A DNA stretch of 64,000 nt. It comes from Carposina sasakii (taxonomy: Eukaryota > Arthropoda > Insecta > Lepidoptera > Carposinidae). The position numbers and the translations under genes were made by a program. Below the pieces are notes generated by a model. The model worked only from the letters and a program-made list of their open reading frames with translations, was not told where the DNA came from and made no database searches. This document shows, piece by piece, positions 19,301-22,300 of the stretch (its first letter is position 1; every line of letters begins with the position of its first letter). The stretch spans positions 4,836,001 to 4,900,000 of the forward strand of contig CP053153.1 in assembly GCA_014607495.2 (NCBI GenBank), given 5' to 3'.

Positions 19301-22300
19301 ACGATTAGGTTGGTAAATGGCCGATCCACGTGCAAGTGTCGCATTACGCGGGCATCGCGTGCAAACGACTCGAGAGAATAGGAGTGGGCGGGAAGAAACA
19401 ACCGCGGAAACCTACTACCGATGACATCGATCAGGCTAGGGTAAGTTCACATCTAACAACTCAGAGACACGAGTTACTAAACATACATATGGTTGTATTC
19501 CCATAACGGGAGCCAGAACCTCAGGGTCACAGAGAAAATTCCACAGCCACTTTTAGCATAACGAGACTGTAAAACATTAGTGAGAAGTTGCTAACTCATT
19601 CCAGAGAGAATGCCCGAGTTCCTTAGGCGACTTTTACGACATGCACAGAAGGAGATGTTTATTTATTTATTTATTTTATTTATTTATTTATATTTTAGGA
19701 AGACATACAGACTACTTAAGTACAATAAATTGCAACAATAGACAATACAATGCCATTAAGCTGTCTCCACCAATAGACGAGATATATATAAAAAAAAAAA
19801 AATTGCCAAAAGGAAATAAGCAATAATAAAAATAACTGTAGCTTATGTATTCTAAGGTAAATGTTAAGATCAGTCTTAATTCAATATGGAAGAAATTATT
19901 CATTTCAAGGCCATTAGGCGTGGTATTGTTGATTCGAAACTAATTAAACGATACGATATGATGTTATCACTATAATCACGAATCTAACTGCTGTTGGAAG
20001 TAAAGCCATAATATTAAATGTAGATATCGAGATTGTGTCGCTACGAATCAAATACACTTTGTCTTACCTACTCCCCCCCCAAAGTCGGTAATAAGCGAAA
20101 CATTATAGTTTCATTGCTATGTTAGTTATTTGGTACTACAGAATAAACGAAATTGAATGAACTTAGGAGGTCGTTTACGTAAAAACACACATACAACTAC
20201 AGAGGTGTTTAAAATACCTGATTGTAATACCTAGTGTTTACAGAATAAAACTTACATTCCAGATCCAAATCTTCCGTCACTCGATGTTTGGTAACACGCT
20301 AGCAGAAGTGATGGCACTACAAAAGGAGCGCTTCCCACAACGTCAGTTGCCGTGGGTGCAAGTGGCGTTGTCGCAGCAAGTACTGGCTTTGGCTGGTCGA
20401 AGCACGGAGGGGATATTCCGTGTGTCGGCCGATGTGGACGAGGTCAATGCCCTCAAAGCTAAGATCGATAGCTGGGAGCTGCCTGATGCTTCTACGTTAA
20501 CGGGTGAGAATTTATGCATTATTTGGTGGTGTAAGGGGTTAAAATAAAAATATATTTTTTTTAGTTATGTACTATAGACATAATTATGTTTATTCAATGA
20601 ACTATGTATACTGCACAGACGCGCACGCGCCGGCCAGCCTGCTGAAGCTCTGGTACCGCGAGCTGTACGAGCCGCTCATCCCGGACGCGCTGTACGGCGC
20701 ATGCGTGGCGGCCGCCGGGGACTGCGCCGCCTGCCAGCGTGCCGTACAGCGTCTGCCGGCGCTCAACCGTCTCGTGAGTGTCACTAGCTGTGCGGCCGCC
20801 GGGGACTGCGCCGCCTGCCAGCGTGCCGTACAGCGTCTGCCGGCGCTCAACCGTCTCGTGAGTGTCACTAGCTGTGCGGCCGCCGGGGACTGCGCCGCCT
20901 GCCAGCGTGCCGTACAGCGTCTGCCGGCGCTCAACCGTCTCGTGAGTGTCACTAGCTGTGCGGCCGCCGGGGACTGCGCCGCCTGCCAGCGTGCCGTACA
21001 GCGTCTGCCGGCGCTCAACCGTCTCGTGAGTGTCACTAGCTGTGCGGCCGCCGGGGACTGCGCCGCCTGCCAGCGTGCCGTACAGCGTCTGCCGGCGCTC
21101 AACCGTCTCGTGAGTGTCACTAGCTGTGCGGCCGCCGGGGACTGCGCCGCCTGCCAGCGTGCCGTACAGCGTCTGCCGGCGCTCAACCGTCTCGTGAGTG
21201 TCACTAGCTGTGCGGCCGCCGGGGACTGCGCCGCCTGCCAGCGTGCCGTACAGCGTCTGCCGGCGCTCAACCGTCTCGTGAGTGTCACTAGCTGTGCGGC
21301 CGCCGGGGACTGCGCCGCCTGCCAGCGTGCCGTACAGCGTCTGCCGGCGCTCAACCGTCTCGTGAGTGTCACTAGCTGTGCGGCCGCCGGGGACTGCGCC
21401 GCCTGCCAGCGTGCCGTACAGCGTCTGCCGGCGCTCAACCGTCTCGTGAGTGTCACTAGCTGTGCGGCCGCCGGGGACTGCGCCGCCTGCCAGCGTGCCG
21501 TACAGCGTCTGCCGGCGCTCAACCGTCTCGTGAGTGTCACTAGCTGTGCGGCCGCCGGGGACTGCGCCGCCTGCCAGCGTGCCGTACAGCGTCTGCCGGC
21601 GCTCAACCGTCTCGTGAGTGTCACTAGCTGTGCGGCCGCCGGGGACTGCGCCGCCTGCCAGCGTGCCGTACAGCGTCTGCCGGCGCTCAACCGTCTCGTG
21701 AGTGTCACTAGCTGTGCGGCCGCCGGGGACTGCGCCGCCTGCCAGCGTGCCGTACAGCGTCTGCCGGCGCTCAACCGTCTCGTGAGTGTCACTAGCTGTG
21801 CGGCCGCCGGGGACTGCGCCGCCTGCCAGCGTGCCGTGTTCAAGGCGCATATTAGCCTACTTGCAAGTGCATTGCTAGTGGTGCAAATATCAGTAGGGTT
21901 GCTGCACGTTCTCCCGAATGCACGGACTGACAACATTGCCGTTGTTACCTTCACATCTATCTGTAGCTGTACAGCACTGTTGTCGCTTGACCGACTTGTG
22001 AGTATTAGTAGAGTGCGTTTCATCAAATAGTTCCTTCGAATGAGCGCTAGTTACTATATTATCGGTGTTACTGCATACAAAAATGTTAGTTCCGAAATCA
22101 GGCATGGTAGTTATTCTATGAAACGGACTCTAGCTGTGCAGCATTGCTGTCGCTTGATCGCCTTGTGAGTATTACTAGCTGGTGCAGCGCTGTTGTCGCT
22201 TAATCTACTTGTACTTGCGTAACAGCTAGGTACTTATACTCTCACAGTATGTATCAATTGTATCACTCAATGATTACTAATACAGGTATATATATATATA

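Follow-up and report, generated by a model that had tools for sequence, protein, structure and literature searches.

The vilse gene and the donor array of exon B

The stretch of DNA analysed here (the window, 64 kb of the Carposina sasakii genome) holds 20 exons of vilse/ARHGAP39 on the forward strand (1491-22655), which code for 1007 open residues; the gene begins upstream of our model. The exons are consistent in phase, 18 of the 19 introns are GT-AG and one is GC-AG. The WW, MyTH4 and RhoGAP domains are all above the Pfam cut-off in the modelled protein, which is 87-94% identical to the lepidopteran homologues P0144-P0186, called rho GTPase-activating protein 39. The domains and the homologues support an earlier reading of the letters alone (hereafter, the sequence-only reading), which had named the gene vilse. 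In a phylogenetic tree with 33 homologues and a fly as outgroup, the window is placed beside the gelechioids Pectinophora and Tuta with a support of 0.72; the support of the next node is 0.49. Exon e9 (10397-10527) ends in a GC donor, CAG|GCAAGT.

The last two exons are the ones of most concern here. Exon B (20619-20773, forward strand), the 19th of the 20 in the model and numbered 21 by the sequence-only reading, a number that the model does not verify, has 155 nt and ends ..LPALNRL in phase 0, and exon C (22431-22655, forward strand) is the last exon. A 55-bp unit is present in about three diverged copies directly after the vilse stop codon (22737-22911), in the presumed 3' UTR.

An 84-bp unit is repeated in tandem on the forward strand at 20708-21837, with 13.45 copies in 1130 bp and no mismatches. 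TRF gives a period of 84, 13.5 copies and 100% matches; by direct comparison, 1046 consecutive bases are the same as the base 84 positions further on, and CTCGTGAGT is counted 13 times within the window. The unit consists of 66 exonic bases (20708-20773 in copy 1) and 18 intronic bases (20774-20791). That is, it starts inside exon B, repeats the exon B donor and overlaps a functional 5' splice site, the point at which the homologues join. An intact donor, CTC|GTGAGT, is present in 13 of the 13 full units. These 13 identical GTGAGT donors (20774-21787) are spaced 84 bp apart, the first base of each being 20774 + 84k (k from 0 to 12), and the last occupies 21782-21787; the terminal partial copy (21800-21837, 38 bp) is without a donor. 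The GC content of the array is 72%, compared with 37% for the window.

Tandem arrays as large as this one are rare in the genome. TRF on 20 random 10-kb stretches (200 kb of the same genome, 57 rows) gave no array with at least 10 copies and a period of at least 15 bp, and two arrays with at least four copies. When the whole genome (399 Mb in 31 contigs) was queried with 20600-20850, 13 matches reached E<=0.001, every one of them inside the array.

Most of what the sequence-only reading had said about the array agrees with these results. Its unit of 66 coding bases, CTC|GTGAGT and about 18 intron bases, in 13 identical copies and one frame, is borne out by the sequence check, and its exon boundary, phase and range of 0 to 12 extra 28-residue blocks by the exon model and arithmetic. 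It had also stressed that all of the copies keep the same open frame. The frame is indeed open through all of the copies, from 20543 to a stop ending at 22030, but this does not amount to evidence of selection, which we do not accept: once the unit duplicates coding sequence, an open frame is expected with a chance of about 0.28 (1/3 x (61/64)^4). The copies share the frame because they are identical, and all that is needed is a unit length that is a multiple of three and an intron part whose few codons are open. The open frames of 420 and 482 aa on the minus strand are a by-product of the 84-bp period.

Decayed donor copies and an array of acceptors

Three decayed copies of the exon end and its donor, all on the forward strand, follow the array. 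The first (21961-22011) has GTGAGT at 21998 and is still in the array frame, the second (22128-22178) has GTGAGT at 22165, and in the third (22182-22212), 46 bp after the second, GTGAGT is replaced by GTACTT. The 53 codons from the array to the relic donor at 21998 are all open, with a chance of 0.079 by shuffling that is weak as evidence of selection. Scored against the unit, the relic donors at 21998 and 22165 reach 21 and 18; the highest value among the rest of the 79 GTGAGT sites outside the array (264 kb) is 9. We rely on this donor-anchored scoring for the relics and not on a cruder local-alignment control, in which the two relics score 25 and 22 and the maximum of 200 shuffles is 16.5; among 100 other window pieces, whose composition was unchecked, one exceeds 25 and four exceed 22 in the same control.

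A short, MITE-like interspersed element (22009-22132, no strand assigned) sits between decayed copies 1 and 2. It has 21-nt inverted ends, and at least 40 further matches to it, at 79-88%, lie elsewhere in the genome. When the element is removed, copies 1 and 2 are about 46 bp apart, like copies 2 and 3. These pieces are the remains of an older donor array with a period of about 46 bp, which decayed and was then split by the element. The site has thus undergone expansion before. The sequence-only reading mentions neither these relics nor the acceptor array described below, nor the human precedents.

The relics also bear on whether the copy number is an artefact of the assembly, the true locus having fewer copies. 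The perfect identity of all of the copies speaks for an artefact. However, independent decayed copies of the unit adjoin the array, the array is just 1.1 kb and so under the length of one long read, and a genome in 31 contigs was presumably assembled from such reads. An artefact is accordingly quite improbable in our judgement.

A second large array is located further upstream in vilse. It consists of 15 tandem units of 44-46 bp on the forward strand (17424-18090; TRF and sequence) and abuts the true acceptor of exon e15 (18090|18091). Upstream of the true acceptor, 14 ACAG sites are present in or just before the array, and one more unit reads ACAT. CTTAAC or CTAAC, which we take to be branch-site-like, occurs shortly upstream of 12 of the 14 ACAG copies and of the true acceptor. 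In the two leftmost copies ACAG is followed by the first eight bases of exon e15 (GCGTCAGT), in the rightmost by GCGTTAGT and in the middle 11 by TCAGT only. From this sequence, the 44-46-bp units can be read as tandem copies of an acceptor. Each of the 14 upstream acceptors is followed by an in-frame TAG within four codons, and therefore this array cannot make protein variants. A 19-base piece of the acceptor unit was found in none of the 36 loci compared.

Homologues at the junction and the choice among 13 donors

The best 120 of 1133 homologue matches were examined at the junction of exons B and C. They include 43 lepidopteran-type entries (P0144-P0186), 38 assigned to Lepidoptera by name plus five more; several of the 43 are isoforms of one species. 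LNRL is joined directly to VLTYL with no insert in 41 of these 43. The other two are P0186, which reads into the intron at the junction, and P0183, a LOW QUALITY model from Choristoneura fumiferana (MSG28_007304) that has 129 extra residues exactly at the junction. This insert, known from its protein letters alone, contains 17 copies of SVPPAP with a 7-residue period, equal to a 21-bp period. Its letters V-S-V would fit GTGAGTGTN, the start of the intron in C. sasakii vilse; its first residue is C, not V, and so the gene model may have taken the repeat for an additional exon. No insert was flagged at the junction in the remaining 77 of the best 120, where rows with unmappable flanks would escape flagging. 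One sequence from a 2112-base contig, P0121, reads through the exon B donor, and a second copy of part of exon B begins 11 codons inside the intron; this copy, also known from protein letters only, is identical at 10 of 15 residues (E 3e-7, single comparison).

Other comparisons touch on the domain and on the repeat as protein. The RhoGAP piece aligns to p50RhoGAP structures free of gaps at the junction among the four alignments listed. A protein search with exon B and four units gave 33 proteins among 7990 candidates, the best covering no more than 48% of the query, and the repeat words tested were absent from all 263 proteins collected. As evidence against read-through this absence is weak, because the candidate set was limited to 7990 and short-read contigs collapse such arrays. 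The structure predicted for a read-through repeat protein by AlphaFold2 without an alignment (mean pLDDT 55) is uninformative as to a solenoid. The 22 residues that the repeat codes for depart from the lepidopteran consensus at six places, which ties the window for second to fifth of 37 sequences and makes it no clear outlier; seven of the 43 rows (six duplicate or isoform rows and P0186) were dropped before this count.

The U1 duplex energy is the same for all of the array donors (-7.7 kcal/mol) and lies mid-range for vilse donors (-5.0 to -11.4). The probability that the donor 9-mer is unpaired is 0.0019-0.0035 for donors 1-11, with donor 1 the highest, and 0.00007-0.00012 for donors 12-13; all of these values are within the range of the 17 other vilse donors (0.000004-0.066). 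RNA structure as the agent that chooses a donor was rejected, since local folding singles out none of the 13. The tuning of splicing suggested in the sequence-only reading accordingly finds no evidence here.

With donors so alike, several of them might be used appreciably, which would give RhoGAP isoforms lengthened by 28, 56 or more residues just before a helix. Their equality in sequence and U1 energy, an accessibility that stays within a factor of two over copies 1-11 and the fact that every choice is in frame are consistent with this, and human IFI6 is cited as splicing from its exon end as well as from two repeat units further down (PMC4526556). However, no insert is present in the 41 homologues, an extra block would hit the conserved helix start of the catalytic domain, and a repeat-bearing protein turned up neither in the protein search nor among the 263 proteins, a weak negative. 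Appreciable use of several donors is thus possible, but we lean against it.

The opposite extreme is that donor 13, the one nearest the acceptor, is the main donor, and the protein would then carry 12 blocks (336 residues). Where two donors are comparable, the intron-proximal one is reported to be preferred, and the manner in which this arises is stated as not known (PMC6002489); in DOK7 the proximal donor is likewise reported as preferred, but it is also the stronger one (PMC5585400). Use of donor 13 would, however, extend exon B from the 155 nt obtained with donor 1 to 1163 nt, where the exons of the model have 90-278 nt, and it would split the RhoGAP domain by 336 residues, which is seen in none of the homologues. 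We regard this as the least credible of the readings.

The explanation that we favor, and consider probable, is that the array is a donor-spanning minisatellite that is nearly neutral, with donor 1 dominant. Slippage or unequal exchange would have made both the 84-bp round and the older round of about 46 bp. Donor 1, which adjoins the 155-nt exon, would be committed first by exon definition and joined to exon C. Nearly all of the mRNA would then encode a normal RhoGAP domain, the array being removed with the intron, and the protein would gain 28 or 56 in-frame residues on the occasions when donor 2 or 3 was chosen instead. Such an array would be near neutral, and its copy number probably varies between individuals.

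Several observations favor this explanation. The 13 donors and the relics are seen in the sequence itself, and the exon that ends at donor 1 has a length usual in vilse. Given the 41 homologues without an insert, a working protein presumably needs donor 1, and it is plausible that this donor is favored, as the sequence-only reading had proposed. The gap-free p50RhoGAP alignments, the protein search and the missing repeat words are in line with the same explanation, as are the human precedents IFI6 and CBS. Three points do not fit easily: the reported intron-proximal preference would predict donor 13 (PMC6002489), the Choristoneura model retains a repeat in the protein, and the position of both vilse arrays on splice junctions, together with the recurrence, hints at more than neutrality.

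The last point could be taken further. The copy numbers at the exon B donor and at the e15 acceptor might be maintained by selection, because they set the rate of vilse splicing or the balance of its isoforms. Both of the large arrays in vilse lie on splice junctions, and a founding unit placed at random in the gene would overlap a junction with a chance of 0.15 (84 bp) or 0.08 (46 bp); the older round at the exon B donor and the repeat at the same junction in Choristoneura point in the same direction. However, the joint chance (about 1 in 80) carries modest weight when worked out in hindsight, the homologue models besides P0183 are insert-free, and the 14 upstream e15 acceptors, with their early TAG, yield no protein variants. 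We consider such selected arrays very unlikely. A broader reading would have donor-carrying minisatellites arise again and again at the vilse exon B donor in Lepidoptera and, with the e15 array in this species, would have splice-site copy number, not strength, set splicing. It draws on the 84-bp array and the 46-bp relics, the 7-residue in-frame repeat of the Choristoneura model, the partial exon copy of P0121 and the second array at e15, and it strikes us as improbable.

Whichever donor serves, the 13 are identical over 84 bp, and little but position can decide among them. The locus is a natural experiment of uncommon clarity on how a single splice point gets chosen. Exon definition predicts here the end opposite to that of the reported intron-proximal preference (PMC6002489), and since every choice of donor is in frame, nonsense-mediated decay should not hide the products.

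Comparison with known minisatellites at splice sites

The vilse array is one of a known class of minisatellites, those that provide a gene with several splice donors, as in human IFI6 and CBS. The IFI6 (6-16, G1P3) minisatellite was reportedly described as a source of multiple donors by Turri et al. in 1995 (Nucleic Acids Res 23:1854). Its donors are said to give three mRNA species (PMC4526556). The likeness is that a single exon end owes its several donors to a tandem repeat. The vilse unit differs in that it has 84 bp, compared with about 12 bp in IFI6, is mostly coding, is identical in every copy and lies inside a catalytic domain, and the vilse array is known from DNA alone.

The human CBS VNTR is a 31-bp repeat at the exon 13-intron 13 boundary, c.1444_1467+7(16_21), reported with 16-21 copies, and more repeats are said to lower CBS activity (PMC2630376, PMC1395315, PMC5188458). 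As in vilse, the unit joins an exon end to an intron start (24 exonic and 7 intronic bases by the CBS name) and is present in many copies. However, the CBS copies are reported to carry substitutions and to be polymorphic in number, whereas the vilse copies are identical and come from one genome (PMC2630376, PMC1395315, PMC5188458). Human genes in segmental duplications are also reported to have internal tandem repeats at exon-intron boundaries, which can change splicing (PMC2812944). These are likewise minisatellites at such a boundary, but they were found between recent paralogues and average about four copies, compared with the 13 identical donors and the acceptor array of vilse (PMC2812944).

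Intron gain by duplication of a proto-splice site likewise involves a splice motif that is copied in tandem with its surroundings. We rejected it for vilse, because it needs AG|GT in the unit as the source of both a new acceptor and a new donor, and AGGT is present neither in the vilse unit nor across the unit border; the donor context is CTC|GT, with no AG|GT to turn a copy into an intron.

Among the papers listed on minisatellites at splice sites in Lepidoptera and on vilse and its synonyms, none is by its title about such an array. Three features would appear to be new: the decayed donor copies, spaced at about 46 bp and interrupted by an interspersed element; the 44-46-bp array of putative acceptor copies adjoining another exon of the same gene; and the 7-residue in-frame repeat predicted at the same junction in the Choristoneura fumiferana gene model. 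The relics and the array at e15 suggest that minisatellites can arise time and again from the splice junctions of a single gene. Set beside its human relatives, the vilse array stands out for its perfect identity over an 84-bp, mostly coding unit in a catalytic domain, for the relics of an earlier round and for the acceptor array in vilse.
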